Positions 47,772-61,248 of a stretch of DNA of 64,000 bases are shown here, piece by piece (the stretch's first letter is position 1; each line of letters opens with the position of its first letter). The position numbers and the translations under genes are program-made. The notes beneath the pieces were generated by a model. The model made no database searches. It was not told the DNA's origin and saw nothing but the letters and a program-made list of their open reading frames with translations. This stretch comes from a virus, in IMG/VR virus record IMGVR_UViG_3300017991_004328, positions 1 through 64,000 of that record, one strand, 5' to 3'.

Positions 47772-49670
47772 CTAACGTCGCATGCGATGACTTCTTGGTC
47801 TCATAGGTCTAGCACGCCTAACGTTTTTGCGGTTAGACAGCGTGCCTAAGTTTTTAGTAAGCATCCGGTGAACCCCCACGTAGCACTGGATCATATCGTT
47901 CGATCCGTTCTTGGGGTGGTCAACTTTAGTTCCTGTGTCTTCTAAGGTAGCTAACTCCCACAACGCTTTTGCACACGGCATACACCGCGACTCCGCAGGA
48001 TCTGCGGTGGCGTGCTCTCTTGTCGGAAGTAAGCAACTTCGGTTTCTGACGTCCGCCAAAAAGTCAACGTGCTCGTCTCTGGTAAGGTTTGCCTTGAAAG
48101 CGTGCACGTTGCTATCGAGCAAGCGCTGAATCTGCTCGGTGCTATTCCACCGGTCATATCCGACTGCCCCTAAACTTAGCGTATCGTTGAGCATCAAAAT
48201 GATCTCGGTTACGGCGGGAAAATAAACCGTATGCGGTGGTAGTCCCATTTTGTTATCAGCCCTGATCGGCCTAATCTCCAACGCACCGTCAATGCGTTTT
48301 ATGCTCTCCTCATTGTGACCGATAGCTAAACAAAAGCTATCTCCTGCCTCACCGGGGTCGCAATGAACGTAGTAGGTGTAGAGATGGTTAAAATCGATTC
48401 TGGAGACAAGCAAACGAACATAGTGGTAAGTCTTCTCAATAAGCTTAGTGCTAATGTGTTTTTTGAAAAACTCTTCGCGGTAGGTGAACATATTTTGCTT
48501 AGTCGGATCGATCGCCGCCTCGATAATGTCTGGGTCTTCTACGAAAGGGCTTTCAGCCCCCGGTGGGTTAGCACCGTAATCTCGTTCGGCTCCCAAAGGA
48601 TCTTTGGCGTACTCCTCGTTTAGCTCTTCTCTGGTAATCGTTGGGTTAAACTCCCACGTCGCTTTGTGAAAGGTGAACATTCTTTTTACAACCTTTGCCT
48701 GCTTCAACAAGTTCATGCTTTTGTCGGTAGAGAACAGCGGCGAGCTAATGCTAACCATAAAACCCGCAAGCAAGTCGTGTCGGTTTTCGTTTTTTCTTAT
48801 TTTATCGATCGCAGAACGCACCGTCCTCAAAGAGCGCTCCATTACTCGATACACCTCGGTAGCGGATTGCTTAGCGTTGCCCGCGTCCATACGACTAAGC
48901 TCATCGACAATCGCAAACAACCGCGTTCTACCAGCCTGGGTTGCCGAGTTAGCAGGAATGGATTCAGCCTTGATCTGTGCGTCTTTCCAATAAACGACAC
49001 GTGTGCTTTCTTGGTAGAGGTCACCACGCCTAAGGTTTGGCTCTGCTAACTCCACACGCATCAACTCTTGCTTGTACTGCTGGAACCAAGGGCTTTCGCT
49101 ATACATGCTTCTAAATTGCCCATACACGGTCTCTTGAGCCTGTTCCCCGGCTGCAGCAGCGAAGCTTGCGTCTAAACGCTGCGCACGAAAAATTCCAAGC
49201 TCCTGGGACATACGTTCGTAGGTTAGTGCGTAGTGAAGCAACGCAGCGGCTACAGACGCTGCCCATGCGCTCTTTCCGGCACGCATCCCCACCACACCGT
49301 TGACCGTATCGAAGAAGCGAAACGTACCCTCCTTAAAGTCTGCTTTCGTTTGTTTGCAAACCGGACAACGCCCCCACTCAAACAAAATTTGCTCGTCCCT
49401 TGGAATATCATCCTGGGTGTGGATCCTAACCAAGTCGTTGCACTTAGGGCAGAGCAGTTCAAACACGTCGCGAGTCATTTTGTACTGCTCGGGGAAGAGA
49501 GGGTTGGGACCAGATAAAAAGTCAGGGCTTTCGATAAACACGATTGGATTAGGCGCAACTGGCAACCTAACACGCCCTTGTGTGACGTGCTTGTTCTCGC
49601 CTTTGGTGCCTTCGATAAACGTGTCTAGGCTGGAGAAAATATCAGAAGGTTCGTGTTCTGCAGTAAGCAT
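47772..49670 (-). CDS. terL: Terminase large subunit with zinc ribbon
   Basis: A 632-residue terminase: Walker A GMRAGKSA at 128-135, Walker B LFAIVDE at 251-257, and nuclease motif CDPGEAGDSF in the second half with further Asp residues (GYDRWNS, ETIQRLLD-like). An unusual zinc ribbon (Cys74, Cys77, Cys102, Cys105) is inserted before the Walker A motif. The enzyme packages DNA into the capsid by ATP hydrolysis and cuts concatemers. C-terminus is Arg-rich (NRKNVRRARPMRPRSHRMRR). Confidence 0.85.
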   Translation of the reverse strand: MLTAEHEPSDIFSSLDTFIEGTKGENKHVTQGRVRLPVAPNPIVFIESPDFLSGPNPLFPEQYKMTRDVFELLCPKCNDLVRIHTQDDIPRDEQILFEWGRCPVCKQTKADFKEGTFRFFDTVNGVVGMRAGKSAWAASVAAALLHYALTYERMSQELGIFRAQRLDASFAAAAGEQAQETVYGQFRSMYSESPWFQQYKQELMRVELAEPNLRRGDLYQESTRVVYWKDAQIKAESIPANSATQAGRTRLFAIVDELSRMDAGNAKQSATEVYRVMERSLRTVRSAIDKIRKNENRHDLLAGFMVSISSPLFSTDKSMNLLKQAKVVKRMFTFHKATWEFNPTITREELNEEYAKDPLGAERDYGANPPGAESPFVEDPDIIEAAIDPTKQNMFTYREEFFKKHISTKLIEKTYHYVRLLVSRIDFNHLYTYYVHCDPGEAGDSFCLAIGHNEESIKRIDGALEIRPIRADNKMGLPPHTVYFPAVTEIILMLNDTLSLGAVGYDRWNSTEQIQRLLDSNVHAFKANLTRDEHVDFLADVRNRSCLLPTREHATADPAESRCMPCAKALWELATLEDTGTKVDHPKNGSNDMIQCYVGVHRMLTKNLGTLSNRKNVRRARPMRPRSHRMRR

Positions 49671-49927: not shown

Positions 49928-50761
49928 ATGTACTTAATCACCGGCGCGGAAGGACAACTTGGAAGAGCCTTTGTTAGCTTATTTTGTCGCAAGGAGATTA
50001 GTTTCAAAGCTTTTGGGCACAGAGCCTGGGACATCACAAACGAGCCTCAGACCGCTGAGATTATGGCCCCCTACCCCGGATGCACCGTCATCAACTGCGC
50101 CGCTTACAACTTCGTCGACGGCGCTGAAGAGAATCAAGAGTTAGCAAAAAACATTAATTCTGAAGCTCCCGCAACCCTTGCGGCCCTGTGCAAACGGCGC
50201 GGTGGAAAGCTAATCCATTTCTCGTCGGACTTTGTCTTTTCAAGTAACGACCCTACAGCCACATTTAGTTGTGATGCCCCTGTCAACCCTATCAACTTCT
50301 ACGGACTAACAAAAGCGTGGGGCGAGGAAAGGGTAAGGAGCAACCTAAAAAATCATCTTATTGTTCGCACGTCCTTTGTTTTTGGGCATGCTCGCACACC
50401 CAACATTGTGCACAAGCTAAAAGATCTTTTGGAGCACGAACACAATCGAGGCGGAAAACCAATAATCGCCACCCGCCCCATAAGCAAAATGACTTACGCA
50501 CCGGACTTAGTCAAAGAGACATGGAAGCTGATACAGAAAAACGAGCAAGGGACTTTTCACATTACCAACAGTGAAACATTTTGCCCGTTTGAATTGGCGT
50601 CCTTTCTAGGGGATAAATTAGGTGTCTCGTGCGCAATACCGGGGGAGTATCAAACACGGGCTCCTCGTCCAATTTGCAGCACGCTAGATGACTGTCCTGA
50701 TCTTCCTAACTGGATGTCGCGGGTTGCTCTTTTTCTAAAGGAGTCACCCAGGGGGATTTAG
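49928..50761 (+). CDS. RmlD-like dTDP-4-dehydrorhamnose reductase (SDR)
   Basis: Rightward gene with AGGAG before ATG 49928; 277 residues. Rossmann motif GAEGQLG near residue 6, NCAAYNFVDGAEE, SSDFVFSS and a YGLTKAWGE active-site Tyr-Lys are typical of RmlD reductases that make dTDP-rhamnose. It is the first gene of the glycan island but on the opposite strand, and its 3' end overlaps the end of a leftward gene. Likely supplies a nucleotide-sugar for the glycosyltransferases downstream. Confidence 0.75.
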   Translation: MYLITGAEGQLGRAFVSLFCRKEISFKAFGHRAWDITNEPQTAEIMAPYPGCTVINCAAYNFVDGAEENQELAKNINSEAPATLAALCKRRGGKLIHFSSDFVFSSNDPTATFSCDAPVNPINFYGLTKAWGEERVRSNLKNHLIVRTSFVFGHARTPNIVHKLKDLLEHEHNRGGKPIIATRPISKMTYAPDLVKETWKLIQKNEQGTFHITNSETFCPFELASFLGDKLGVSCAIPGEYQTRAPRPICSTLDDCPDLPNWMSRVALFLKESPRGI

Positions 50762-51103
50762 TTTTACAACTTCAAACTTTTCGATCTCCCCTTTTTTTAC
50801 AGGAGATCCGCAAACAGGGCATACGTTGTCATAGACCTCTGTGAAGTCACAATTGCTGGGGCACGTAACACGCCGATGGGCCACAATGATTTTTCCCTCG
50901 GAATAAAAAATTCCATTAAGAACACCCAACACACCTACAAACCCTTTTCCTGAAGACCAGTGGGGAACCTTGCATTGAATTGTAGGGTGGTTTACGATCC
51001 CTTCGTTACACCACACTTCTTTTTCAAAAAGCTTACTAATCCCTCCTTGGTCCAATTGCAGGGCTTCATTTAGCAGCGCTGTCGTGTCTTCAATCGTTGG
51101 CAT
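50744..51103 (-). CDS. Unknown protein with C-terminal zinc ribbon
   Basis: Start at ATG 51103 (MPTIEDTTALLNEALQLDQG). About 119 residues with VTCPSNC and VCPVCG forming a zinc ribbon near the end. Convergent with, and overlapping by 18 bases, the rightward reductase. No function recognised. Confidence 0.55.
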   Translation of the reverse strand: MPTIEDTTALLNEALQLDQGGISKLFEKEVWCNEGIVNHPTIQCKVPHWSSGKGFVGVLGVLNGIFYSEGKIIVAHRRVTCPSNCDFTEVYDNVCPVCGSPVKKGEIEKFEVVKLNPPG

Positions 51104-51134
51104 TAGGAAAGGCTCCGTTTGATAGCTTTTACCT

Positions 51135-51857
51135 TCACAATTCACCCCATTTTCTTTGCGCGTTTACGATTGGACCTTTGTTATCTCGCTTGCCTAAAAA
51201 ACGTGCCTTGTTTTTTAGGATCAGATCATTTCGAAAGTATCCTGGGTTTCTTGCGTGCGGAAGATGGATCATACTTGTATCATCCATGTGCATCATCTTC
51301 CACGCGGCTAATTTGGCTCTCAGGTTTAGATCTTTGTCTTCGTATCCCCAACCTCGATAAGTCTCGTCAAACCCTTTGACGTAGTGCAACCAACTGGTTT
51401 TGACTCCCTGACAATTTCCTACGCCGTGCGGTTTCTTCGTAGCCGTTGCTAGTACGGTGTTGCGGTACTGTCGATACTTCTTCCAATTAAACTGGTGGGG
51501 ATCAAACTTCGGAGGTGAATCCGCAAAGTCCGTCAAGCACCTTACGAACCCATGTTCAATGTTCTGCATTACTTTATGAAAAAAGTTAGGTTGGAAAATT
51601 TGGTCTACGTCTGTGATCAAAGTGTAAGGGGTCTGCACTGCCTTAATCCCAATATTCAACGCGCGTGCTTTGTGGAACAAAGCCGTGTCACGCACCACAC
51701 GAATTACTTTTCCTTCTGTCTGCAACCTAACTGGCTTTGCAGATCCAAAGTCGACAACAATTAGCCGGGGCTTAGGATCGCAATAAGCAATCGAGTGTTC
51801 GCAGTAAGCTAAGTTTTCGGTGCGGTCTTTTACCGCTATAACAACAGTTAGGTCCAT
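51135..51857 (-). CDS. GT2/GT7-like glycosyltransferase
   Basis: A 240-residue GT-A glycosyltransferase: N-terminal MDLTVVIAVKDRTENLAYCE, DVDQI at the metal-binding DXD site and GWGYEDKDLNLRAKLA, a motif shared with chondroitin- and galactosyltransferase-type enzymes. It probably transfers a sugar in the phage glycan pathway. It lies next to three sulfotransferases. Overlaps the next gene's end by ten bases. Confidence 0.75.
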   Translation of the reverse strand: MDLTVVIAVKDRTENLAYCEHSIAYCDPKPRLIVVDFGSAKPVRLQTEGKVIRVVRDTALFHKARALNIGIKAVQTPYTLITDVDQIFQPNFFHKVMQNIEHGFVRCLTDFADSPPKFDPHQFNWKKYRQYRNTVLATATKKPHGVGNCQGVKTSWLHYVKGFDETYRGWGYEDKDLNLRAKLAAWKMMHMDDTSMIHLPHARNPGYFRNDLILKNKARFLGKRDNKGPIVNAQRKWGEL

Positions 51858-52474
51858 GTGTACCCAAACCTTTTAAAGTCGTCTGAGAACATTCCTGCGA
51901 CCAAGCTTACTGAACGAGGGGTGTAGTAGGACCGGTAATCTCGATGGGAGGTTTTGTTGGTGTGCGGTAGAAAAGAGTTTACCTGAACCTTTACTGAGAT
52001 CGATTTCCACGCACTTCCGATTTCTTCGAGCTTGTAATACTTACTTACGATTTGATTTCCGGCACGGTCCGACAAATACCACCATTGACCGTTGCGAATC
52101 GGGTGCCGGTAGGGATTTGATTTTTCGAACCACTCTACAAATTCAGGAAAGCCTAGCTTGTTAGCAATTTGATGTCTTGGATCGTGGGTGTCTTTTCGGA
52201 TGTAAAAATAAGCAGAGACCATCCAATCAAATGGGTTCCTCACTATCCCAAAGCTAAACATCTCTGCCCAGGAGGCATACCCCATGTGTTGCCTAAGGTC
52301 TCTGGCGGGGGCGTGCTTCCACAGTCTAGGATTTGCTTGCTTAGCTACCCCCGGTGGCGGATTGTGTTGGTAGACCCCGACGGTTGCGTGCTTGCCCAAA
52401 ACCTTTTTGATACTGGTCCCACCAGTTTTCGGGATGTGGACAAAAACAAATTTTTTGGTGTTGGAAATGATCAT
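51848..52474 (-). CDS. Sulfotransferase (Sulfotransfer_2 type)
   Basis: A 208-residue enzyme with the 5'-phosphosulfate loop FVHIPKTGGTSIKK near residue 10 and the 3'-phosphate motif FGIVRNPFDWMVSAYFY around residue 75, as in carbohydrate sulfotransferases. It would move sulfate from PAPS to a glycan. Phage-encoded carbohydrate sulfotransferases are uncommon. No PAPS-making genes were seen, so host PAPS is presumably used. Confidence 0.8.
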   Translation of the reverse strand: MIISNTKKFVFVHIPKTGGTSIKKVLGKHATVGVYQHNPPPGVAKQANPRLWKHAPARDLRQHMGYASWAEMFSFGIVRNPFDWMVSAYFYIRKDTHDPRHQIANKLGFPEFVEWFEKSNPYRHPIRNGQWWYLSDRAGNQIVSKYYKLEEIGSAWKSISVKVQVNSFLPHTNKTSHRDYRSYYTPRSVSLVAGMFSDDFKRFGYTWT

Positions 52475-53151
52475 TTTTTCCAGTGGACCAGTTTAGGGTC
52501 AATCCACGTCTCAACCTGTCGTTTATTGAGCGTTGGTTTTTCCTCGATGAACTTACAAATCTGCTTGTAGGTCTTCCACGGCTTAGTGAACAATTTCTTG
52601 AACTCCAAGTCCATGTACTTAGCAAAGCCGTAGTGAGCCCTCACACGCTTCTCGTGCTCTGCCCATGCTCTGATATGGGTTTTGATAGTTGGAAGGCTTG
52701 CATCGCGCTCCACGGGGTTCCTAGAGCCTTTCCACATTCTCTGCGTGCTCTTGGCTTGCGCATCGATGTCGCGCTGCATACACAACACGTACACTTCAAC
52801 GTCAGGCACGCCTGCGAGAAAAGCTAAGTGAAGGTATCGCTGGGCCTTGAACGCAACTAAGTTTTTCGCAAATTCCTTTTCGAGTATTTTTTTGAATTCG
52901 TCGGTATGTCTCTTCGCCACCGTTCTCAAGTTACTTATCTCAGGAACGTACTGCAGGTTGTCTCCGTAGAACATTCCCCAAACGTTGCGCTGGAATTCTC
53001 GAAAAGACCTTAGCTCAAAGTAGCCTTTTGGGTTCATCGGACTTTTACCCGTAAGACTTTTTCCAACGTCGCAGCCGTGGATCTTAAGCAACCCCATCGT
53101 TGCACTAGTGCCCATCCTCCCCAAACGACTTCCCACCAGAACGATTTTCAT
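52471..53151 (-). CDS. Sulfotransferase-like protein
   Basis: A 226-residue protein starting MKIVLVGSRLGRMGTSATMG, a degenerate P-loop-like phosphosulfate loop, followed by NPKGYFELRSFREF, as in the neighbouring sulfotransferase. Its 3'-phosphate region (VYVLCMQRDIDAQAKSTQRM) is similar in place but weaker. It overlaps the downstream gene by four bases. Likely a sulfotransferase or related nucleotide-binding transferase. Confidence 0.65.
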   Translation of the reverse strand: MKIVLVGSRLGRMGTSATMGLLKIHGCDVGKSLTGKSPMNPKGYFELRSFREFQRNVWGMFYGDNLQYVPEISNLRTVAKRHTDEFKKILEKEFAKNLVAFKAQRYLHLAFLAGVPDVEVYVLCMQRDIDAQAKSTQRMWKGSRNPVERDASLPTIKTHIRAWAEHEKRVRAHYGFAKYMDLEFKKLFTKPWKTYKQICKFIEEKPTLNKRQVETWIDPKLVHWKK

Positions 53152-53873
53152 TTTTTACTAAGCTCCTGGAGCTTGTTGTACAACGGTAAGAGGTTTTCAG
53201 GATAGCGCATTGGCTTAGACCGTTTTAGTTTTACGTCAGGAAATTTTCGATCAACATCGGCAATAACGGCATCAACCACTTTTTCGATTCCCGCCTTCGT
53301 CAGTATCTCGTCAAAGGAGATAAACTTCCAAGGGCGTGTACTGTCGGCATAGTGGTTTAAGATGTTTAGGTACATGTCTTCCCACACACCAAACAAGTAA
53401 GAGGCGTCGTGTTTGTAGTTTGCTAGGTACTTAGCTTTTCTTATCTCCTGCCGCATACTAGAAACCGTAATTCCAGGGTTTCGAAAGACGACCAAAACAA
53501 CGGTGTTGGAGGGAAGATAGGCGTCCCAGGTAGGAAATGTGTACGAAAGCCGGGGGTCCTTCAAACAAAACGGTTTGGGTCTTGGTTGCAGGTACTTTCT
53601 AATCAGCACCCGCTGTTGATAAGTCGAGTACAGCGGCGTACCTGGAGCTAATCTTTTTAACCACCAATGCCCCCTCGGTACCTGTCTTTGCGTTGTTTGC
53701 TTCAGTATCCCCTCATTGATCTCGTGGTTGACCGTAGAATCCTCGAAGAAGCCTTTCGGATTAGCAGGGCTCGGCGGAATAAGATTGTCGCCGTGCCAAT
53801 GCGTTTTGTTCATAAGCCCCGCCAGTAGGCTGCTTCCACTTCTACCGGACCCGAGAACCACGACGTTTTTCAT
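53148..53873 (-). CDS. Sulfotransferase-like protein
   Basis: A 241-residue protein with P-loop GSGRSGSSLLAGLM near the start, NPKGFFEDSTVNHEI and VVFRNPGITVSSMRQEI, again the sulfotransferase layout. It is the third such gene in a row and shares ATGA-type overlaps with both neighbours. Different acceptors for the three enzymes would explain the triplication; this is inference. Confidence 0.75.
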   Translation of the reverse strand: MKNVVVLGSGRSGSSLLAGLMNKTHWHGDNLIPPSPANPKGFFEDSTVNHEINEGILKQTTQRQVPRGHWWLKRLAPGTPLYSTYQQRVLIRKYLQPRPKPFCLKDPRLSYTFPTWDAYLPSNTVVLVVFRNPGITVSSMRQEIRKAKYLANYKHDASYLFGVWEDMYLNILNHYADSTRPWKFISFDEILTKAGIEKVVDAVIADVDRKFPDVKLKRSKPMRYPENLLPLYNKLQELSKK

Positions 53874-54772
53874 TTTGAGAAAACCTTTTTGAAGCTAGAA
53901 ATTATTGTTTGCGGGTGCGTCCACCGCGTATGTTGGTTGTTGGGCAACCACGGTTGTGCAAGCATTTTCAAATAAGCCTCGTCGTTGCTGTCCAAAAAAG
54001 CTACCTGATCTAGCAGTGCCCTCAGTACTGACGAGTATCCGCTAATGCCCTTGTGGTAGGGGTGAACAAAACTATCTCCGTTGAAGTCTCTGCACACCTC
54101 AGGATTACCCCAATAAATAGGAATCGCATTAGCTAGCATCGCATGGTAGATCTTCTCGGTTGTGTAACCGGGGTAAGCACTGTTCTCAAAGGAGATGACA
54201 AACTTGTACGGTTTGAGGTAGTCTATTTTTTCCTGAAAAAAGTTTGGACTGCTGTGCCTGCTGCTGTGCGGGTCTTTGTACCCACCGATCGGTTTTGCAT
54301 TGTTCCTGCAGTTACCCGGCGAATCGACTCGCTTGTACTTGTTCAAAACATCGAACATTTGATTTCGAATTGTAATGTTGTGGGCGTAGACGAATGCACA
54401 AAACTTAGTTTTGCTAGCTAGGATTTTTTCGGGGTCGTAATCCTTGGGTTTGATTAGGTCTTGTCCTGCACCATTCTTGACGTAGTTCGGCACCCGAAAG
54501 TAATGCGGCTTTTGAATCTCATCTTCGTAGTCAGTGCCCATGCACCAATCACAATTTTTTGTGTCCGGCCTTACGTTCTCGTTGTTGAAAAATATCCTGG
54601 TGTAATTTGTTCTTCCTTTGATCCCCTGCCCAGACAAGACATGTGTTGGGTTAGCCCGATCGTGAATAAACTCGAAGTGATCGAAGAGGTATGTCATTTT
54701 TCGGAAGAACCTGTTGGCGGTAAGTTGCTTGCTCCACATATTGCGAACGTCGGTGCGGACTCTTGTTTTCAT
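53870..54772 (-). CDS. GT10 alpha-1,3-fucosyltransferase
   Basis: Start at ATG 54772 (MKTRVRTDVRNMWSKQLTAN), 23 bases after the preceding stop. About 300 residues. It carries the GT10 signature: KFCAFVYAHN, YKRVDSPGNCRNN, FVISFENSAYPGYTTEKIYH and AIPIYWGNPEV. GT10 enzymes transfer fucose from GDP-fucose. A second GT10 gene lies at 58.6 kb. The two share a conserved DNA stretch around codons for ILASKTKFCAF. Confidence 0.82.
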   Translation of the reverse strand: MKTRVRTDVRNMWSKQLTANRFFRKMTYLFDHFEFIHDRANPTHVLSGQGIKGRTNYTRIFFNNENVRPDTKNCDWCMGTDYEDEIQKPHYFRVPNYVKNGAGQDLIKPKDYDPEKILASKTKFCAFVYAHNITIRNQMFDVLNKYKRVDSPGNCRNNAKPIGGYKDPHSSRHSSPNFFQEKIDYLKPYKFVISFENSAYPGYTTEKIYHAMLANAIPIYWGNPEVCRDFNGDSFVHPYHKGISGYSSVLRALLDQVAFLDSNDEAYLKMLAQPWLPNNQHTRWTHPQTIISSFKKVFSK

Positions 54773-55616
54773 GTCTTTTTCTTTCGTACGCACGCTCAAC
54801 TGGATCGAGTGCTTTTTCGATCGGGTCTTGCGAAATCGCTTGTGAGAACAGACCATGCGATCGCAGCCACTCCCGGAACCTGCCCATTTCCAGTGGCTTT
54901 GACGCGGTCCATCCGATTGGCCACCCCATCATCCACTCGCGCAAAGCGGGGTAGACGCCACCAGTCAGTGACTTCACACCTCCCTTGTTGCTGCCGTAGA
55001 GACTTGCTGTTGGTGTTGGCAATTTGTTCAGCACCGTAGCCAAACCATTGCCCGACCTGGAGGACGCCCCTTTCTTGTTGTAGTCTCCGCATACTGTCAA
55101 GGTTGGCAGCATTTCCAATCCACTCACTGGACACGGCAACGATCCACATTCGTCTTCGCTCATGGTTCGCACCGATGTCCCCAGCTCCCAATACCCCGAC
55201 CCGTCCCACATACCCCATGCTGATAAATCTCTCGACGATTGTGGCCAACCCCTTGGTACGTAGGTGCGGACTGTTTTCCGTGAACACAAACGTAGGCCGC
55301 ACTTCATCAACAATTCTGAGCATTTCGTAGACAAGCCCAGAACGTGATCCGGTAATTCCAGCACCTTGACCCGCCGCACTGATATCCTGGCATGGGAATC
55401 CTCCGCTAATGACATCAACGTGTCCGCGCCAGGAGCGCCCGTCGAACGTGCGAACGTCGTCCCATATTGGGAATCGGGGCAAGCACCCATCTCGCTGTCT
55501 GCCGAGCAATATCTGCTGGCAGTAGGGATCAAGCTCGACAGCGCAGACGGTGCGCCATCCAAGCAAGTGTGAGGCCAGCAAGCCGCCTCCTGCCCCTGCA
55601 AATAATGCCAGCTCAT
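54651..55616 (-). CDS. Overprinted frame with methyltransferase-associated sequence
   Basis: A 321-residue frame overlapping almost all of the cytosine methyltransferase in a different phase. The region residues ~55-245 contains strings that I recall from proteins annotated with phage Dcm genes: SRKTVRTYVPRGW, SGYWELGTSVRTMSEDECGS, LPTLTVCGDYNKKGASSRSG and ALREWMMGWPIGWTASKPLE. The last ~75 residues run past the end of the methyltransferase. No ribosome site was identified. It may be a real overprinted gene or may reflect old frame errors in databases. Confidence 0.45.
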   Translation of the reverse strand: MSWHYLQGQEAACWPHTCLDGAPSALSSLIPTASRYCSADSEMGACPDSQYGTTFARSTGAPGADTLMSLAEDSHARISVRRVKVLELPDHVLGLSTKCSELLMKCGLRLCSRKTVRTYVPRGWPQSSRDLSAWGMWDGSGYWELGTSVRTMSEDECGSLPCPVSGLEMLPTLTVCGDYNKKGASSRSGNGLATVLNKLPTPTASLYGSNKGGVKSLTGGVYPALREWMMGWPIGWTASKPLEMGRFREWLRSHGLFSQAISQDPIEKALDPVERAYERKRHENKSPHRRSQYVEQATYRQQVLPKNDIPLRSLRVYSRSG

Positions 55617-55620
55617 TCAC
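54796..55620 (-). CDS. DNA cytosine-5 methyltransferase (Dcm type)
   Basis: Start at GTG 55620 (GTGA overlap with the upstream stop) giving MNELALFAGAGGGLLASHLL, the family's usual opening. 274 residues: motif I FAGAGGG, motif IV GGFPCQDIS with catalytic Cys77, motif VI FTENSPHL, motif VIII NHERRRMWIVA, and at the end VANRMDRVKATGNGQVPGVA as motif X. It methylates cytosine in DNA and would protect phage DNA from restriction. A second long frame on the same strand overlaps most of it. Confidence 0.82.
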   Translation of the reverse strand: MNELALFAGAGGGLLASHLLGWRTVCAVELDPYCQQILLGRQRDGCLPRFPIWDDVRTFDGRSWRGHVDVISGGFPCQDISAAGQGAGITGSRSGLVYEMLRIVDEVRPTFVFTENSPHLRTKGLATIVERFISMGYVGRVGVLGAGDIGANHERRRMWIVAVSSEWIGNAANLDSMRRLQQERGVLQVGQWFGYGAEQIANTNSKSLRQQQGRCEVTDWWRLPRFARVDDGVANRMDRVKATGNGQVPGVAAIAWSVLTSDFARPDRKSTRSS

Positions 55621-56255
55621 GCCTGTCTCGACCAAGAAGGGAATTTACGAACAAAGGGGCTTTCGGTTTTATTCAGTTCCAACAGACCCCAGCCCACCAA
55701 AGGATGGTAGGGACTGGTCTTTTCTTCGTAACTCGGATAAACAACAGTGTGCGGTACCGTACAACAATCTTTGATGTAAGCGTAGGAGCAAACCTGGTTG
55801 TTGTACCGGTCGAACTGAAATTGCTTTTTACCAGGCACCTGAAAATCGTCGATGAGGATAAACCAAGAACGATCACCAACGTGCTTGCAAATCATTCTTA
55901 CTTCGTCTCTCAAAGGCCATTGAAAGCCCCTGCCGTGCGCGTCTAACCAAAAGACAGCACTATACACGTCCAACTTTGGCAGGAGCTTAGGAAGGAACTG
56001 TTGACTTGTGGCATGGTACAACCGAACATTGTTCATCCCAGCACAATTTTGCTTAGCTCTGGCAAACTGCTTTTCGTCCGCTTCACAACTGTAGCAAAGC
56101 AAAGAAGGGTGGTTGCCTGCTACGTAGTGCAAGGTGGCCCCGATATTAGTTCCTGTCTCCACAAACACTAGCGTATTCTTGAGCAGGTACGCGGCACCTT
56201 GCATTAGGTAGTAATCGCCGTGGAAGCCTACCGGGGGATAAATTTTTCTGTTCAC
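55617..56255 (-). CDS. Class I methyltransferase-like protein
   Basis: A 212-residue protein from GTG 56255 (GTGA overlap). TLVFVETGTNIGATLHYVAG matches a SAM-binding motif I, FWLDAHGRGFQWPLRDE a downstream motif, as in enzymes that act on glycans or small molecules. It lies between a DNA methyltransferase and an FkbM methyltransferase. The acceptor is unknown. Confidence 0.65.
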   Translation of the reverse strand: MNRKIYPPVGFHGDYYLMQGAAYLLKNTLVFVETGTNIGATLHYVAGNHPSLLCYSCEADEKQFARAKQNCAGMNNVRLYHATSQQFLPKLLPKLDVYSAVFWLDAHGRGFQWPLRDEVRMICKHVGDRSWFILIDDFQVPGKKQFQFDRYNNQVCSYAYIKDCCTVPHTVVYPSYEEKTSPYHPLVGWGLLELNKTESPFVRKFPSWSRQA

Positions 56256-56965
56256 AACTTTCCTGCCTTCTTGAGATCGTTGCAGGGGTGGTCGGTGTGG
56301 ATAAGCTGCGCTCGTGGAATATTTGCGGCGTTGTGAACCTTATCGACGAATCGTGCGGGGGTAAAGAAAAGGTTGTTTGCAAGCTTTCGTGCTCGATGGT
56401 AGCCAAAAGTCTTTAGGTAGACCTCCAGCTCGATTTCTTTTTCCCGGTCGATTGCCTCGCAAACGATAATGCTGGGGGCGTACTTTCTAAGGTCAAACCC
56501 CTTCAGCACTCTTAGTTCTGCACCCTCCACGTCGATCGTTACCATATCGACCTTAGGAACTTGAGCTTCGGTAAGAAGAGTGTTCAAACACCTTGCGGGA
56601 ACCTTTACTTTCTTGTACCCCCGAAAAGCTTTGGGATAAGCTTTTTTGAAGTACTCGCCCATGCTCGGATCGATCGTGCTAAGCGTTCCAAGCTCGTTCA
56701 AGTAGAAATCCATCTCTTCTTGATCACACTCACAACACGCGCCTGAAAACACCACTGACTTAGGCCGATTCTTTTTTACGAGTTCTGCGTAGGCCGGGTG
56801 CACCTCGACGCAGAGCCCTTGCCAACCAGCCTGCTCGAAGCTGTAGGAGTTAGAAAAGCGCTTACCGTCAAGCGCCCCCACATCCACAAAAAACCCCTTG
56901 TAGCCAGGATCAAACACCGACCAAAGAATTTTGTCTTCGCCGTTTTGGGAGTAGTATTTAGGCAC
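56252..56965 (-). CDS. FkbM family methyltransferase
   Basis: Start at GTG 56965 with AGGAG seven bases upstream. 237 residues with the FkbM hallmarks YYSQNGEDKILW, GFFVDVGALDGKRFSNSY (SAM-binding) and VDMVTIDVEGAELRVLKGF. These enzymes methylate sugars or secondary metabolites. The position in the glycan island suggests sugar O-methylation. Confidence 0.8.
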   Translation of the reverse strand: MPKYYSQNGEDKILWSVFDPGYKGFFVDVGALDGKRFSNSYSFEQAGWQGLCVEVHPAYAELVKKNRPKSVVFSGACCECDQEEMDFYLNELGTLSTIDPSMGEYFKKAYPKAFRGYKKVKVPARCLNTLLTEAQVPKVDMVTIDVEGAELRVLKGFDLRKYAPSIIVCEAIDREKEIELEVYLKTFGYHRARKLANNLFFTPARFVDKVHNAANIPRAQLIHTDHPCNDLKKAGKL

Positions 56966-57065
56966 CTCTAATCTCCTTTGGTGTGATCTCACGCCATTCA
57001 GGAAAAAGTTGCAGAAAGCGATCGACTGCTAAATCATCTGCCCGCAGTACCTCGCCAGCTCCAAT
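56958..57065 (-). other. Open fragment overlapping the FkbM start
   Basis: A coding-like frame (GAGEVLRADDLAVDRFLQLF then PEWREITPKEIRGA) ends at TAA 56958 and overlaps the FkbM start. It has no ATG, GTG or TTG start in frame and begins right after a stop. It may be the end of a frameshifted gene that began at the 46-residue ORF next to it. Confidence 0.35.
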
Positions 57066-57174
57066 TCAGATCTCTTCGGTGCCACAAGCCGTGTTTGCCG
57101 CGCTTAACCCAAAACTTGTGCATCTTAGCCGCGTTCTTCCTGGTTTTCCTTAGCCACCTTGCTGTCTTTTTCAT
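57034..57174 (-). CDS. Small basic protein (46 residues)
   Basis: ATG 57174 with GGAGG five bases upstream encodes MKKTARWLRKTRKNAAKMHK, continuing with KRGKHGLWHRRDLNWSW. Very basic and Trp-rich. Its ribosome site is excellent, so it is likely translated. It may be intact or the first part of a frameshifted gene continued by the fragment at 56958-57065. Confidence 0.55.
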   Translation of the reverse strand: MKKTARWLRKTRKNAAKMHKFWVKRGKHGLWHRRDLNWSWRGTAGR

Positions 57175-57196
57175 AGCAACCTCCAACAAATGAAAT

Positions 57197-58033
57197 TTAC
57201 TTCTGCAAAGCCTTCCTTTTCATCCGCTCTGCTTTGGCATCTACCCAAATATCCTTCAAAGGAATAAACGTCGGCTCCTTCTGTCTTCCGAGATTAGCTT
57301 GCTTCAATCGCTTAGTTACCTCGTAAGGGTGTTTTCTCGTCGTCTCCCAAATACTTCTACGGTGCCACAACAAAAACTTCGAGTAGCCTTTTGCGTGCCA
57401 CAGGTGGTAGAGCTTGTGATCAAACTTATGCTCTTTACCTAAAATGTGCTTAGCTCGCCAAGCGATGTCATTGTCGTTACCGCCCCACCCCAAGTAGTTT
57501 TCGTTGTACCCACCGAGGCGATCCCAAAAAAACTTAGCGTTGGCTGCTACGGAATACCCTGCGAACAAAAGTGTTCCCGACTTCTGACGTTCAGCCTTTT
57601 CTAAGTGCTTACGTTCAAGCTTCTTCGTCTGCATTACTTCTGCAGAAGCTTTTGCATCCATAGCCAGCATCGTACTCCACGCAATAAAGTAAGGCGCTCT
57701 AAAATTTCTTACTGCTTGAAGATACGTCTCCGAACACACCAAATCGATGTCGTAAAACAAGTAACGTTCGCCGTTGGCAATCTTCGCCCCGACGTTGGCC
57801 ATCCAGGGTTGGTTGAAGTGGTTTTCTCCAGGGCCTTCGATTTGAATGTACTTGTCGACTGGAAGATCCTGGTAGTACGGTCCACCTGTTCTTAACCCGC
57901 CTAACAAAGCATTGATTTGTTCGACAAGAATAATCTCGTATTCGACGTTTCTGCTTTGCCTAAGAAAATGGATGCACGTTTGCGCGTGCTCTTGCCTGTT
58001 TTTCCCTGTGATGGGAATTATGACCGAGAGCAA
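57197..58033 (-). CDS. GT2/GT7-like glycosyltransferase
   Basis: Start at TTG 58033, which has GAGGAGGT in front, immediately after the preceding stop; longer frames lack a site. 278 residues: LLSVIIPITGKNRQEHAQTC, ERYLFYDIDLVC as the DXD region, NENYLGWGGNDNDIAWRAKH as the GT7-like ending, and a basic tail. Similar in layout to the transferase at 51.1 kb. Likely a sugar or amino-sugar transferase of the glycan pathway. Confidence 0.75.
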   Translation of the reverse strand: MLSVIIPITGKNRQEHAQTCIHFLRQSRNVEYEIILVEQINALLGGLRTGGPYYQDLPVDKYIQIEGPGENHFNQPWMANVGAKIANGERYLFYDIDLVCSETYLQAVRNFRAPYFIAWSTMLAMDAKASAEVMQTKKLERKHLEKAERQKSGTLLFAGYSVAANAKFFWDRLGGYNENYLGWGGNDNDIAWRAKHILGKEHKFDHKLYHLWHAKGYSKFLLWHRRSIWETTRKHPYEVTKRLKQANLGRQKEPTFIPLKDIWVDAKAERMKRKALQK

Positions 58034-58035
58034 GG

Positions 58036-58272
58036 CTACCTCCTCAATAGCTTTGTTTGTACGGTTTTCAGACCAGTAATCGAAACCTGCTTGTTGTGCC
58101 CCTTGTTCAAACAAGGACCAACACACTCACCTTTTGAGTTCACTAAGGTTAGCCCACAACCCTCACAAAGGACAGAAGCTAAGTAGCCATGTTCAACCAG
58201 CCCCACAAAGTCATTTGGTTGGTCTAAATCCGGATACACGTCTTTCATACATTGTTGGCAGTACGATCCCAT
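58036..58272 (-). CDS. Small double zinc-site protein
   Basis: A 78-residue protein with YCQQCMKDV near the start, LCEGCGLTLVNSKGECVGPC in the middle and a basic end. Several Cys pairs suggest one or two zinc sites. It is similar to small phage zinc proteins that I have seen without assigned function. ATG 58272 is 1 base behind the preceding gene. Confidence 0.6.
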   Translation of the reverse strand: MGSYCQQCMKDVYPDLDQPNDFVGLVEHGYLASVLCEGCGLTLVNSKGECVGPCLNKGHNKQVSITGLKTVQTKLLRR

Positions 58273-58473
58273 TTACGCATCCTCCGTTGGCGGAATGTAA
58301 CCCAGGCCCACCTTTTTAACAAAAAGCGCTTCCGGAAAATACTCGGCAACCTCTTCCAGATTTTTAGCAAGACAGTAAATGTGTCCGTCCTGCACGTCGA
58401 TGTAGTCGCCATCTACTTCAGCGGTGCTTTTCAATGCGTTCGTTGTTTTGAGTTCTACTAAGTAGCAATTCAT
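58273..58473 (-). CDS. Small unknown protein
   Basis: ATG 58473 overlaps the previous stop as ATGA. 66 residues (MNCYLVELKTTNALKSTAEV, ALFVKKVGLGYIPPTEDA), a likely small beta-alpha fold. No function recognised. Confidence 0.55.
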   Translation of the reverse strand: MNCYLVELKTTNALKSTAEVDGDYIDVQDGHIYCLAKNLEEVAEYFPEALFVKKVGLGYIPPTEDA

Positions 58474-58574
58474 TTTAGGGAACTCCACAAAACATCGTCA
58501 TCCCGAACAAGAAATTCTGGAACCCAGAAGCACCCTTCCGCAATACTGAATAACTGGACAAGGCTAATATCCAT
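58470..58574 (-). CDS. Very small protein (34 residues)
   Basis: ATG 58574 with AAAGGGAC in front encodes MDISLVQLFSIAEGCFWVPE and ends DDDVLWSSLK. Its stop overlaps the next start as ATGA, which supports it being a real coupled gene. Hydrophobic first half. Function unknown. Confidence 0.5.
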   Translation of the reverse strand: MDISLVQLFSIAEGCFWVPEFLVRDDDVLWSSLK

Positions 58575-58588
58575 TTTTGGGTCCCTTT

Positions 58589-59482
58589 CTATTTGGGTTG
58601 CAGTAGGATCTTATCAAATTGTTTTCTAATCTTTTCGGGGTCGACCCAATCGGTGTACGTGTTGTTGGGAAGCCAGGGTTGCCTAAGCTTAGCTAAGTAT
58701 TTGTTAGGATCCTTGTCAACAGCCTCAACCTTATCCACCAACGCGGCAAAGCTGCCATCGAAATTAATAAAGCTCTTGGGGTTAAAATCGCGGTGAACTT
58801 GAGTGTTGCCCCAATAAATCGGAATGCAGCCAGCGAGCATGGCAAGATAAAGTTTTTCGGAGGTGTACCTGTTATCTCGTTCGTTCTCGAAGGCAATGAC
58901 AAACTTGTACTGCCGGTAGAACTCCACCACCTCATCAAACTTACGGTACAGACGGCGTCTAAGGTGGTGTCTGAGGTTTTGTCGGGTTGCCCCACCCAAA
59001 GGAGCCATGTTGTTACAAACCGCCCCAGGGGCGTCTACGCGCTTGTAGCGTGACAACAGTTCAAAGAACCTCATTCGATTAGGTTCAGGGTTTGAGTAAA
59101 CAAACGCGCAAAACTTAGTTTTGCTAGCTAGGATTTTTTCGGGGTTGTAGTGGGGAGGTTTGATCAAATCAGGACCGGCTCCAATCCTGGCATAGTTTGG
59201 CAACCGATAATGCCTCGGGTTGTTGTCCACGTCTTCGGGGTAGAAAAACGTAAACGAGTAGTCAGCCTGCTTGAGATTCGGACCGTGGTTCTCAACAGGA
59301 ATCCAAACCTTCTTGGCTGTCTTAGGAATGTTCTTAGCCTGGTGGGGCTTAGAATAAAAAACAACTCTTGGGTTTGAAGGAACAAAATCGTAGTTGTTAG
59401 CCACGCATTTGAGCCTAGCAAACAAAATATTGGCACTTATCTCCGGACGCCACATCCAAGCTACTGCAGGCACTTCAATCAT
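58589..59482 (-). CDS. GT10 alpha-1,3-fucosyltransferase, second copy
   Basis: ATG 59482 overlaps the upstream stop as ATGA; an ATG at 59497 is possible. 297 residues with the GT10 motifs KFCAFVYSNPEPNRM, YKRVDAPGAVCNN, KFVIAFENERDNRYTSEKLY and CIPIYWGNTQVHRDF, and the ending PWLPNNTYTDWVDPE shared with the first copy (PWLPNNQHTRWTHPQ). The two copies are clearly paralogous but diverged, perhaps to different acceptor sugars. Confidence 0.82.
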   Translation of the reverse strand: MIEVPAVAWMWRPEISANILFARLKCVANNYDFVPSNPRVVFYSKPHQAKNIPKTAKKVWIPVENHGPNLKQADYSFTFFYPEDVDNNPRHYRLPNYARIGAGPDLIKPPHYNPEKILASKTKFCAFVYSNPEPNRMRFFELLSRYKRVDAPGAVCNNMAPLGGATRQNLRHHLRRRLYRKFDEVVEFYRQYKFVIAFENERDNRYTSEKLYLAMLAGCIPIYWGNTQVHRDFNPKSFINFDGSFAALVDKVEAVDKDPNKYLAKLRQPWLPNNTYTDWVDPEKIRKQFDKILLQPK

Positions 59483-59679
59483 TTTAGGTTTTCCCATAGC
59501 CTTGGTTCTCCTTCCTCGCAACCGTAGCCTAAGGGACACCAACAACCCACCATCCCTAATAGGTGGGTACAGCAACCCTGCCCCTCTTCTATTCCAGTTG
59601 GGCGACAGAACTCTTTGTGCTCACAATCCTTGCAGAGTTTTATGTAGACGCACTCAGCACAAAGAATTCGCTTAGCCAT
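59479..59679 (-). CDS. Small Cys-rich protein
   Basis: A 66-residue protein with many cysteines: CAECVYIKLCKDCEHKEFC and CCTHLLGMVGCWCPLGYGC. A compact zinc or disulfide protein. Coupled to the fucosyltransferase downstream by ATGA. Function unknown. Confidence 0.6.
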   Translation of the reverse strand: MAKRILCAECVYIKLCKDCEHKEFCRPTGIEEGQGCCTHLLGMVGCWCPLGYGCEEGEPRLWENLK

Positions 59680-60022
59680 TTTTGCGACTCGTGTTTAGTA
59701 TTGCTTGCTGGTACGAATTTGAGATTGCTTGATAGTGGGCAAGCTTTTCGATCTGTTTTTTTAGGCTCGCTGAGAGAACCCGCACCCCCCGCTCGTCGTA
59801 AAGACGATCAACCAGTTCTCGCAACACTTCTCTTTCCGTATTTCTAATTTCTAACATTTCTTTGTCTTTCCGCTCTCTAATCTCGGACCTAGACTGAATA
59901 AGCTCAATTTCTTTGCGAGACAACCGTGCTTCTAACTTGATTACTTTTTTTCGTAACTTACTGTTTTCTTCCTTAGTGCACTTCCACTCAGAAAACAAAG
60001 GACACTCTTGAGGGCAAGGCAT
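59672..60022 (-). CDS. Coiled-coil protein
   Basis: A 116-residue protein with CPQECPLFSEWKC at the N-terminus (possible metal site) followed by a long highly charged helix (RKKVIKLEARLSRKEIELIQ, REVLRELVDRLYDERGVRVL). A coiled coil is very likely. No function can be assigned. Confidence 0.6.
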   Translation of the reverse strand: MPCPQECPLFSEWKCTKEENSKLRKKVIKLEARLSRKEIELIQSRSEIRERKDKEMLEIRNTEREVLRELVDRLYDERGVRVLSASLKKQIEKLAHYQAISNSYQQAILNTSRKNG

Positions 60023-60031
60023 AGGGATCTC

Positions 60032-60241
60032 CTAACAACAGCTTTTGAGAAGTTCTGATTGCAGTTCAACGTAAGAAAGATCTTTGAACCGAATAGGTGC
60101 ACCTACCGACTTGAGAATAACAACCACGGCGTCAGGCTCTTCCCAAAAAGCCACGATGTCATTGATTCGAAAAGCGTGCTCCCCCCGATCTCCCACAAAC
60201 ACAAAGTCAGATGCTTTCACGTTACGCTCCGTATCCTGCAT
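60032..60241 (-). CDS. Small beta-rich protein
   Basis: A 69-residue protein (MQDTERNVKASDFVFVGDRG and VVVILKSVGAPIRFKDLSYV), with beta-strand character similar to small SH3-like or PRC-type folds. It overlaps the methyltransferase gene upstream by 20 bases. No family recognised. Confidence 0.55.
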   Translation of the reverse strand: MQDTERNVKASDFVFVGDRGEHAFRINDIVAFWEEPDAVVVILKSVGAPIRFKDLSYVELQSELLKSCC

Positions 60242-60917
60242 AGGGGTAAAACTTAGGTCGGGCTTTTAGTACTTGTTTACAGGGTTTTCCCACCCAAAGC
60301 ACATAGACAAAGGATCGGTAAATCGGAGGGCACAGAGGCTTACGAGGCTTGGCTCCTTCTTTTATGTACAGATCGCACATAGAGTTCAATGCCTCGCAAT
60401 AGGAGTTCGAGGCAGCATCCAAGGGTATGATGTCCTGTGAGTCGGTACTGTTTAGCAGGGGCTTTTCGATAAGCAAAGAGTACGGCAGTTTTAGGCTTGC
60501 GGCGCAAGCTTGCAAAAAGCTTGTGGTGACCCTTGTTTTGTGACCGCATCCATCTCTCCAATAAAACTTAGTTCCCTTCTGCTCCAAGTAGTCGTCGAAG
60601 TCGAAACTAGGTCCTTCGACGTAAACAAATTCCCGGCTCTTCTTGCAAGCCGTTTTTAGAGCCGTGTAAACGTCTTCGTAGCTAGGAAGGTGTTCTAAGA
60701 CGTGGCAAGCCATCGAAAAGCGCACAGTGCCCTGTAGCTTGTCTAGTTGCTGAATAGGAAGGCACGCTGCAACGTAACCTGCATCTTTTAGCAATTTGAC
60801 ACGTTCAGGATTCTTGTCGATGCACAAACCAACCTTGCCCCCAAACTTGTGCTTCGCGATTTTGTAACTACCCCCGTGACCAGCACCGAGATCAAGAAAA
60901 TCAACTTGAACTTTCAC
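60222..60917 (-). CDS. Class I SAM methyltransferase
   Basis: A 231-residue protein from GTG 60917 with motif I FLDLGAGHGGSYK, an acidic loop after the second strand (GLCIDKNPERV) and ACHVLEHLPSYEDVYTAL, the standard pattern of ubiE/methyltransf_11-type enzymes. A C-terminal part with YCEALNSMCDLYIKEGAK may bind the acceptor. Adjacent to the SpeD-like gene with overlapping starts. Confidence 0.72.
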   Translation of the reverse strand: MKVQVDFLDLGAGHGGSYKIAKHKFGGKVGLCIDKNPERVKLLKDAGYVAACLPIQQLDKLQGTVRFSMACHVLEHLPSYEDVYTALKTACKKSREFVYVEGPSFDFDDYLEQKGTKFYWRDGCGHKTRVTTSFLQACAASLKLPYSLLIEKPLLNSTDSQDIIPLDAASNSYCEALNSMCDLYIKEGAKPRKPLCPPIYRSFVYVLWVGKPCKQVLKARPKFYPYAGYGA

Positions 60918-61248
60918 ACGACCCCCTAATTACAGAACGTGACTCGAAATAAGTCGGTTTGTACAACAAAATTAGTTTAGCCAAAATAACCTCGGGATTT
61001 TCAAACCCGTAGATATCAAGGCACGCCGCTTTGTTCTCAGGCCACGTGTGGATCGTAATGTGCTTGTGGTCGTCTAGTAAGATGGCGGACATTCCTTGAG
61101 GCTCAAATTTGCGTACCAGCAATTCTGCGTCTAAAAGGTTTAGTTCTTTCAAAATGCATTCATCGTCAAGATCATGTTCTGAGATTAGGTTCACGATACA
61201 ATGGGCCTTTTCCATAAGCTCCTCGGGGATTGAATAGCATTTACCCAA
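60901..61248 (-). CDS. SpeD-like (AdoMet decarboxylase) homologue lacking catalytic serine
   Basis: A 115-residue protein with the SpeD core, SAILLDDHKHITIHTWPENK. Aligning it with known enzymes, the Ser that forms the pyruvoyl group (in ES-H[LI]-x-IHTWPE) is Lys62, and the active-site Cys that donates a proton is Phe82 (YGFEN instead of FTCGD). The fold may be kept but decarboxylation by the known chemistry is not possible. Starts at TTG 61248 with AAGG upstream. It may be a regulator or a binding protein for SAM or polyamines. Confidence 0.7.
   Translation of the reverse strand: MGKCYSIPEELMEKAHCIVNLISEHDLDDECILKELNLLDAELLVRKFEPQGMSAILLDDHKHITIHTWPENKAACLDIYGFENPEVILAKLILLYKPTYFESRSVIRGSCESSS

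Follow-up and report, generated by a model that had tools for sequence, protein, structure and literature searches.

A myophage operon joining sulfotransferase-family and GT10 genes, and its possible role in glycan synthesis

The analysed window, 64,000 nucleotides of viral DNA, carries sulfotransferase-family, GT10 and other glycosyltransferase genes packed together near a terminase gene, and raises the question of what glycan the phage could build and where it would be attached. The 87-kb source record is contained, with one mismatch, in a 136-kb contig (G001). PHROG matches among the 30 window proteins scanned include the Caudoviricetes myophage markers terminase, portal, major head, head protease and tail sheath. 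A nucleotide search of phage records with a 25-kb query gave no match, and a search of bacterial genomes with the terminase, aimed at the host, found no relative. The comparison below relies on a diverged phage (G003, 120 kb read). Since G001 and G003 are linear and possibly incomplete contigs, genes absent from them could be missing sequence.

Layout of the operon

The minus strand of the window encodes, between positions 51135 and 59575, three sulfotransferase-family proteins, two GT10 enzymes, two GT2/GT7-like enzymes, an FkbM methyltransferase and another methyltransferase (Table 1). These domain matches bear out the first-pass annotation, which had listed three sulfotransferases, two GT10 and two GT2/GT7-like enzymes with coupled starts. 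In the order GT10a-SULT3-SULT2-SULT1-GT7a, neighbouring genes overlap by 4–10 bp; from GT10a through a Zn-ribbon ORF the overlaps are 4, 4, 4, 10 and 11 bp, and the FkbM and MTx genes overlap by 4 bp. The genes are as densely packed as had been claimed, but the operon does not end at the proposed boundary, position 61248. Additional glycosyltransferase genes follow to the window end at 64000 and further, where the full GT4 gene is succeeded by more GT4, GT2 and GT4 genes as far as 69413 (window numbering). The RmlD-like reductase that had been counted as part of the island is genuine, but it is encoded by the other strand, next to the terminase gene and outside the operon. The several methyltransferases of the annotation include FkbM and others, but one of the genes encodes a DNA cytosine-5 methyltransferase, probably a passenger of the operon rather than a glycan enzyme, and another is AdoMetDC-like.

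Table 1 Features of the window and their homologues in the diverged phage G003
Feature	Position	Strand	Evidence	G003 homologue (identity)
Terminase large subunit (late-gene context marker)	47772..49670	-	PHROG 17415, E 3e-61; 30% to Virus Rctr197k	
RmlD-like dTDP-4-dehydrorhamnose reductase, 277 aa	49928..50761	+	RmlD_sub_bind E 1.5e-52	
GT7a (GT2/GT7-type)	51135..51857	-	Glycos_transf_2 E 6e-11; Glyco_transf_7C E 2e-7	50%, within operon
SULT1	51848..52474	-	Sulfotransfer_2 E 2e-15; KTGGTS, RNPFDWMVS motifs	45%
SULT2	52471..53151	-	Sulfotransfer_3-like, E 3e-5, under cut-off; GRMGTS P-loop	no separate counterpart found
SULT3	53148..53873	-	Sulfotransfer_3-like, E 1e-3, under cut-off; GRSGSS P-loop	43% over 227 aa
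GT10a	53870..54856	-	Glyco_transf_10 E 2e-16; FucT_N E 2e-7	45%
DNA cytosine-5 methyltransferase	54796..55635	-	DNA_methylase E 2e-31; PHROG 363 E 1e-55	
MTx, class I SAM methyltransferase	55617..56255	-	Pfam Methyltransf_35 only, below cut-off	48%
FkbM-family O-methyltransferase	56252..56992	-	Methyltransf_21 E 5e-18; TIGR01444 over cut-off	55%
GT7b (GT7-like)	57197..58126	-	Glyco_transf_7C E 5e-7	56%
GT10b	58589..59575	-	Glyco_transf_10 E 9e-16; FucT_N	44%
MT23, SAM methyltransferase	60222..60917	-	Methyltransf_23 E 0.005, under cut-off	36%, equivalent position in operon
AdoMetDC-like	60901..61248		pyruvoyl Ser replaced	
GT4 glycosyltransferase, truncated by window end	63631..64000	-	Glycos_transf_1 E 2e-19	52%

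Putative sulfotransferases and fucosyltransferases

SULT1 scores 58 bits against the 22-bit cut-off of Sulfotransfer_2 and matches PHROG 3347 'Galactose-3-O-sulfotransferase' (E 7e-19). SULT2 and SULT3 fall below the Pfam cut-off of Sulfotransfer_3 (27 bits), which the G003 homologue of SULT3 passes at 31 bits; SULT2 and SULT3 share their P-loop and an SPxNPKGxFE motif. Motif alignment showed that the sulfotransferase-type P-loop is retained in all three proteins. The 3'-phosphate R...S motif corresponds to RNPFDWMVS in SULT1 and FRNPGITVSS in SULT3, and is less clear in SULT2. For SULT2 and SULT3, AlphaFold prediction from the single sequence gave uninformative models (pLDDT 35–37). A phage-encoded supply of PAPS was considered and rejected because the G001 contig contains no APS kinase, and PAPS must be supplied by the host.

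Both GT10 enzymes score 58–61 bits against the Glyco_transf_10 cut-off of 23.9 and keep the donor motif R...EN...(T/S)EK, and GT10a resembles an alpha1,3-fucosyltransferase of solved structure (PDB 2nzw, E 2e-17). Comparison with G003 indicates that translation of GT10a probably begins at Met29; the start of GT10b is probably Met27. Judged by family membership, both enzymes would transfer fucose from GDP-fucose. Thus, the island described earlier as sulfated and fucosylated is real as a set of sulfotransferase and GT10 genes, while its sulfate and fucose are predictions from protein families.

Nucleotide-sugar donor genes

The de novo pair for GDP-L-fucose, GDP-mannose dehydratase (GMD) and GDP-fucose synthase, is present in G001 with its catalytic residues. 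GMD (G001 108429-109400) scores 410 bits against a cut-off of 415, with GMD as the best family, and aligns to a solved enzyme with key residues kept (E 1e-104). GDP-fucose synthase (G001 126226-127173) likewise has its own family as the best match, at 432 bits against a cut-off of 500, and the SSC and Y-x3-K residues are conserved in its alignment to a GDP-fucose synthetase of known structure (E 1e-99). Like GMD and GDP-fucose synthase, the RmlC/B/A-like genes, at 103.7-106.7 kb of G001, are located outside the window; the RmlD-like reductase would catalyse the final step of the dTDP-L-rhamnose route to which they are assigned. The best NCBIfam models for RmlA, B, C and D are Rml models, with the cut-off exceeded by RmlC only; for the RmlD-like reductase, the best family is TIGR01214, at 163 bits against a 224-bit cut-off, and the alignment to PDB 3sc6 (E 2e-26) keeps YGLTK. 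Together with the RmlD of the window, these genes suggest that the phage encodes a GDP-fucose branch and, probably, a route of the dTDP-rhamnose type. The position directly upstream of the terminase gene is occupied in relatives by an RmlA-type gene or by RmlB/RmlC. A full dTDP-rhamnose role is assigned to RmlA only with caution, since relatives in which neither RmlC nor RmlD was seen also keep the RmlA-type gene beside the terminase.

Conservation in a diverged phage and spread among viruses

The first-pass annotation had proposed comparison with related phages as a check, and the core of the operon is indeed kept in diverged G003, where about twenty operon genes, including both GT10s, two sulfotransferases and GMD, form one run. 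The gene content, linkage and conservation of the operon are directly established, and its retention as one run argues that the core is a selected unit. GMD of G003 adjoins GT10 and the sulfotransferases, and also the gene of a DegT aminotransferase, whose similar proteins include perosamine synthetases. The G003 operon has no DNA methylase, AdoMetDC-like gene or RmlD, and neither GDP-fucose synthase nor RmlB/C/D was seen in the 120 kb read. Since the synthase was not seen there, GT10 in G003 may draw on GDP-fucose of the host or on a different GDP-sugar. The G003 operon leads, without a change of strand, into replication genes, and the structural genes are on the other strand. This orientation weakens the proposal of late expression drawn from the position upstream of the terminase, and late expression is therefore not a conserved feature.

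The statement that phage sulfotransferases are rare holds only in part. Matches to SULT1 were obtained by tblastn in 4 of 50,697 phage records and matches to SULT2 or SULT3 in none, but a sulfotransferase domain is encoded by 11 of the 41 other GT10-bearing viral contigs (weakly in one), and APS kinase by eight of the 41. In six of the seven GT10 records that have both, Sulfotransfer_2 genes are located at most about 6 kb from GT10, and APS kinase adjoins a sulfotransferase or GT10 in large phages. Stenotrophomonas phage DLP6, which can be cultured, is one phage that carries a sulfotransferase gene. GMD or GDP-fucose synthase flanks 39 of 77 other viral GT10 loci, and an MTx homologue, a recurrent neighbour of GT10, is present at 12 of the 77. 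Relatives identified by their terminase, mostly short fragments, gave no match to Sulfotransfer_3 or GT10. Our literature search found no description of a phage operon combining a sulfotransferase and a fucosyltransferase.

Possible products and acceptors

From these genes we infer enzymatic activities, sugars and an acceptor. GMD and GDP-fucose synthase would produce GDP-L-fucose, and the RmlA/B/C/D-like enzymes a dTDP-6-deoxyhexose, for example dTDP-rhamnose. Assembly of an oligosaccharide would fall to roughly a dozen soluble enzymes of the GT4, GT2, GT7-like and GT10 families, of which the GT10 enzymes may add branches of fucose or of some related GDP-deoxysugar. FkbM and further methyltransferases, together with two or three of the sulfotransferases, would then cap the chain, using SAM and PAPS supplied by the host. 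The most likely acceptor is a virion protein, to which the glycan would be attached in the cytoplasm, and the charged, methylated coat may alter adsorption or hide the particle. We consider this largely autonomous glycan pathway of a myophage, with a cytoplasmic virion-protein acceptor, the leading explanation, and hold it tentatively, at somewhat short of an even chance. 

A close rival, which we regard as possible although improbable on balance, is that the operon remodels host lipopolysaccharide, capsule or S-layer glycan via the lipid carrier, flippase and ligase of the host, for example to exclude other phages. Such a role was proposed for the glycosyltransferase clusters of jumbo cyanophages (PMC7824862) and S-SCSM1 (PMC9602691). 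O-antigen clusters typically contain genes of the GMD, fucose synthase, rhamnose, DegT and GT4 kinds, the position of the G003 operon ahead of same-strand replication genes fits early expression, and cytosolic glycosyltransferases and sulfotransferases could equally supply a host lipid-linked pathway. However, a hydropathy scan of G001 (136 kb) and G003 (120 kb) revealed no flippase-, polymerase- or ligase-like polytopic protein, and neither contig encodes an initiating phosphoglycosyltransferase (Bac_transf). A chain of about a dozen glycosyltransferases is long for adjusting a host polymer, and nucleotide-sugar genes adjoin the terminase in relatives. Some genomic features, namely the absence of recognised export and initiating proteins and the location of nucleotide-sugar genes upstream of the terminase in relatives, lean towards the virion rather than the host surface. 

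The sulfotransferase-like genes might instead be mixed cargo in an otherwise active glycan operon, decayed or directed at another acceptor, so that no sulfate reaches the glycan. Two of the three score below Pfam cut-offs, G003 lacks a separate equivalent of SULT2, and APS kinase is absent from the phage contig; nevertheless, their frames are open, their P-loops intact and their translation coupled to GT10, and SULT1 and SULT3 are conserved beside GT10 in G003 despite only about 45% identity there, which makes this explanation unlikely. Hypermodification of phage DNA, in which C5-methylated cytosines would be oxidised, glycosylated and sulfated, is suggested by the DNA methyltransferase inside the operon, and phages reportedly possess glycosyltransferase and sulfotransferase systems that modify nucleotides (as stated in PMC10829341). 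It is very improbable: G001 encodes no TET/JBP dioxygenase (PF12851), no thymidylate-synthase-type enzyme (PF00303) is present in G001 or G003, and the otherwise conserved G003 operon has no DNA methylase. We give equally little credence to a diffusible sulfated or methylated metabolite, such as a glycolipid, a signal or an antibiotic-like compound. FkbM, sulfotransferase and aminotransferase genes are known also from secondary metabolism and such products were suggested for jumbo phages (PMC7824862), but no PKS, NRPS or RiPP scaffold enzyme was recognised among the operon genes, and glycosyltransferases dominate the core.

The virion-protein reading has a bolder form, in which phage enzymes make nearly all of a virion-coating glycan that is sulfated and methylated and contains fucose and rhamnose, and sulfation is a recurring, undescribed phage strategy, with APS kinase encoded by some large phages. 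We consider this form doubtful. If virions were so coated, this would be relevant to receptor choice, to evasion and to the ecology of phages, and the phages would be a source of new sulfotransferases and fucosyltransferases. In G001 and G003, a compact gene set keeps sulfotransferases, GT10s and one GDP-sugar enzyme together, so that what phages sulfate becomes testable with few enzymes and one glycan.

Comparison with known systems

If the bolder form is true, the phage would parallel, among viruses of bacteria, the self-glycosylating chloroviruses. In chloroviruses and mimivirus (PMC9614988), a virus-encoded set of nucleotide-sugar enzymes and transferases, including those for deoxysugars, decorates the virus's own particles. 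However, these are eukaryotic viruses with demonstrated particle glycans, whereas the phage is known from its genes alone, and the review text on giant-virus self-glycosylation (PMC9614988) does not include a sulfotransferase. Among groundwater virus auxiliary metabolic genes, GMD and dcm are over-represented (PMC10980836), but as a single-gene listing, in contrast to the linked sulfotransferase-GT10 operon. The 'capsular polysaccharide modification' clusters of jumbo phages (PMC7824862) likewise combine paralogous glycosyltransferases with nucleotide-sugar enzymes and sometimes O-methyltransferases, but sulfotransferases, fucose and rhamnose are unmentioned in that text. The T4-like cyanophages S-SKS1, S-SCSM1, P-SSM2 and S-SRM01 encode GMD and GDP-fucose synthase (about 51% identical), fucosyltransferases and other glycosyltransferases (PMC9602691); unlike in our phage, tblastn with SULT1-3 detected no sulfotransferase in them, and no operon joining sulfotransferases with GT10 was seen in S-SKS1. 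A Sulfotransfer_3 protein was named in S-SRM01 (PMC10580990).

In the uncultivated huge phage LR756508 (484 kb), several Sulfotransfer_2-like genes adjoin a GT10 gene, and a stretch of about 10 kb holds them together with an MTx homologue (31% identity), GMD and GDP-fucose synthase; in another, LR756500 (462 kb), a sulfotransferase gene is situated among glycosyltransferase genes, as in the window. Both deposited records are unannotated. They are different genomes, their transferases are only 25-35% identical, and no Sulfotransfer_3 pair was recognised in one operon, although there are two further candidates with no Pfam match. Phages with such sugar genes were already known, but the combination described here is new, and this phage encodes more sugar donors of its own and more sulfate-adding enzymes than the phages compared here.

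Genome of the phage and a conserved glycan operon

The window phage is a myophage, as identified by the families of its portal, terminase, major head protein, head protease, and tail sheath. Its 87,270-bp source record is contained, with one mismatch, in a contig of 136,432 bp found by protein search (IMGVR_UViG_3300018080_000117, G001). A terminase search of bacterial genomes for the host returned no relative. Judged by eye, the contig also has a TnpB-like/TnpA-like pair of the IS200/IS605 type and, further on, another TnpB-like gene; ARAGORN calls a tRNA with a two-base anticodon in the window (Table).

The glycan operon is real, conserved, and functionally coherent; its gene content, coupling, and conservation are observed directly, and the activities are those expected from the protein families. 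Its genes from GT10b to GT7a (Table) lie on the minus strand between positions 59575 and 51135. Neighboring genes from GT10a through GT7a overlap by 4, 4, 4, and 10 bp, which makes coupled translation of this stretch plausible. The GT10 family assignment is firm at the sequence level for both genes (58–61 bits against a cut-off of 23.9; GT10a matches a solved α1,3-fucosyltransferase with E 2e-17). SULT1 is likewise a firm member of the sulfotransferase family. SULT3 itself scores below the Pfam cut-off and gains its family assignment from a 43% identical relative in the diverged phage G003, which exceeds it. SULT2 scores below the Pfam threshold, has a clear P-loop in common with SULT3, and is the least secure call of the three.

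The first-pass annotation ended the glycan island at 61248, but GT4, GT4, GT2, and GT4 genes continue to 69413 in window numbering. One of its several methyltransferases is a DNA methylase, and the gene at 60901-61248 is AdoMetDC-like. The RmlD-like reductase assigned to the island is present, but lies on the strand opposite the operon, where it adjoins the terminase and is separated by about 10 bp from a small membrane gene transcribed divergently.

Table. Coordinates of the operon genes (in operon order) and other features; positions without a contig or locus name are those of the window
Feature	Position	Strand	Remark
GT10b	58589-59575	-	
GT7b	57197-58126	-	
FkbM methyltransferase	56252-56992	-	
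MTx	55617-56255	-	
DNA C5 methyltransferase	54796-55635	-	between glycan genes
GT10a	53870-54856	-	
SULT3	53148-53873	-	
SULT2	52471-53151	-	
SULT1	51848-52474	-	
GT7a	51135-51857	-	
RmlD-like	49928-50761		
AdoMetDC-like	60901-61248	-	HKH where solved enzyme has pyruvoyl-forming ESH
RmlC, RmlB, RmlA-type nucleotidylyltransferase	G001 103.7-106.7 kb		
GT, GMD, cupin-like, DegT aminotransferase, methyltransferase, two GT2	G001 107.4-113.0 kb		in that order
GDP-fucose synthase	G001 126.2-127.2 kb		
TnpB-like	36872-38137	-	IS pair
TnpA-like	38205-38621	+	IS pair
Second TnpB-like	G001 74586-76124	+	
tRNA	25510-25592	+	two-base anticodon; adjoins two ordinary Leu tRNAs
CysC beside sulfotransferase or GT10	L109 11655-14828; L110 10193-12269; L112 7451-11882		large uncultivated phages
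KdsA-, KdsB-, KdsD-like	L023 14744-17709		LR756500; by eye; near sulfotransferase

That the glycan core is probably one selected pathway is best supported by G003 (IMGVR_UViG_3300015370_000011, 121 kb), a diverged relative picked up by searches with GT10 and with the methyltransferase MTx alike. The two phages are 48% identical in terminase, 54% in sheath, and about 59% in major head protein. Twenty-one genes from the two glycan blocks of the window phage match G003 (36–64% identity), where they are grouped on one strand from 56.4 to 37.2 kb in the order GT4, small gene, GT2, GT4, GT4, MT23, GT10b, GT7b, FkbM, MTx, GT10a, SULT3, SULT1, GT7a, GT, GMD, cupin, DegT, MT, GT2, GT2. In the window phage, the GMD-containing block from GT to GT2 is relocated to the other arm. 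The G003 run lacks the DNA methylase, AdoMetDC-like gene, and RmlD, and no separate gene in it corresponds to SULT2, which argues that these four are accessory. With its altered self-cleavage site, the AdoMetDC-like protein probably does not act as an ordinary decarboxylase; it should not form a pyruvoyl group and possibly has an altered function. A homologue also occurs at another viral GT10 locus (L048).

Sugar donors and sulfate supply

GMD (GDP-mannose dehydratase) and GDP-fucose synthase can each be aligned almost end to end with solved enzymes, and the expected catalytic residues are retained. RmlC scores above its curated cut-off; for RmlA, B, and D the best model is likewise Rml, at scores below the cut-offs. 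Since G001 encodes GMD, GDP-fucose synthase, and RmlA/B/C, and the window RmlD, phage enzymes probably make both a fucose donor and a rhamnose-type donor. The identity of the sugar as fucose is uncertain, because GDP-fucose synthase was not found in G003 and the DegT adjoining GMD resembles perosamine synthetases among others; a different GDP-sugar is possible. No APS kinase was found in the 136,432 bp of G001, and therefore PAPS must come from the host. Both contigs, G001 and G003, are linear, and genes may be missing from either.

Distribution among other viruses

Of the 77 other viral loci in the GT10 alignment, 39 carry in their fetched flanks a match to GMD or GDP-fucose synthase, counted from 38% identity over 200 aa upward; the GDP-fucose synthase matches are 49–54% identical. 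Sulfotransferase domains occur in 11 of 41 other GT10-bearing records, one of them weak. Sulfotransfer_2 adjoins GT10 or lies within about 6 kb of it in the window phage, G003, G039, G035, G033, and G038; in G030 the distance is 23 kb. Eight of the 41 records encode APS kinase. In G007, G008, and G011 its gene and a Sulfotransfer_3 gene are no more than about 3 kb apart, with fiber-like genes nearby in the former two; in G009 the APS kinase gene is in line with GT10. In large uncultivated phages, where the APS kinase gene (CysC) adjoins a sulfotransferase or GT10, a phage-encoded PAPS supply is possible. Searches of named phages gave four records matching SULT1 and none matching SULT2 or SULT3. 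In LR756500, an uncultivated huge phage, Kds-like genes suggest KDO synthesis.

Proposed mechanism and acceptor

Judging from the enzyme families, a mechanism can be proposed. Phage-supplied GDP- and dTDP-deoxysugars would be substrates for soluble glycosyltransferases, the GT10 enzymes would add fucose or a close relative, and FkbM, other methyltransferases, and sulfotransferases would finish the chain. Neither G001 nor G003 encodes a Bac_transf initiating enzyme, and a simple hydropathy scan of both showed no polytopic protein resembling a flippase, polymerase, or ligase. Other relatives of the terminase have an RmlA-type gene, or RmlB/RmlC, directly upstream of it. Because of these two features, the evidence leans towards a cytoplasmic acceptor made late, that is, virion proteins. 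We regard decoration of the virion tentatively, as slightly short of an even chance. An RmlA-type gene with two small, lysis-like one-TM proteins recurs directly upstream of the terminase in L113–L119 and L121; in the window phage this block has moved and now lies near 105 kb of G001.

In G003 the operon continues into replication genes, which counts against a late virion-protein acceptor and favors modification of the host surface, the explanation given for cyanophage glycan clusters of similar type (PMC7824862, PMC9602691). The lack of export and initiating enzymes points the other way, and we give host-surface modification somewhat lower odds than virion decoration, about one in three. Modification of DNA by the operon enzymes is unlikely, with no TET/JBP in G001 and no thymidylate-synthase-type enzyme in G001 or G003.

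For virion decoration, a precedent exists in chloroviruses, whose virion proteins are glycosylated (PMC9614988). Among named phages, the island most similar to that of the window phage is in LR756508, an uncultivated huge phage. Phage glycan clusters carrying GDP-fucose genes are already known. What is new here is that two to three sulfotransferases, two GT10s, and two deoxysugar routes occur together, which brings the function of phage sulfotransferases within reach of experiment.
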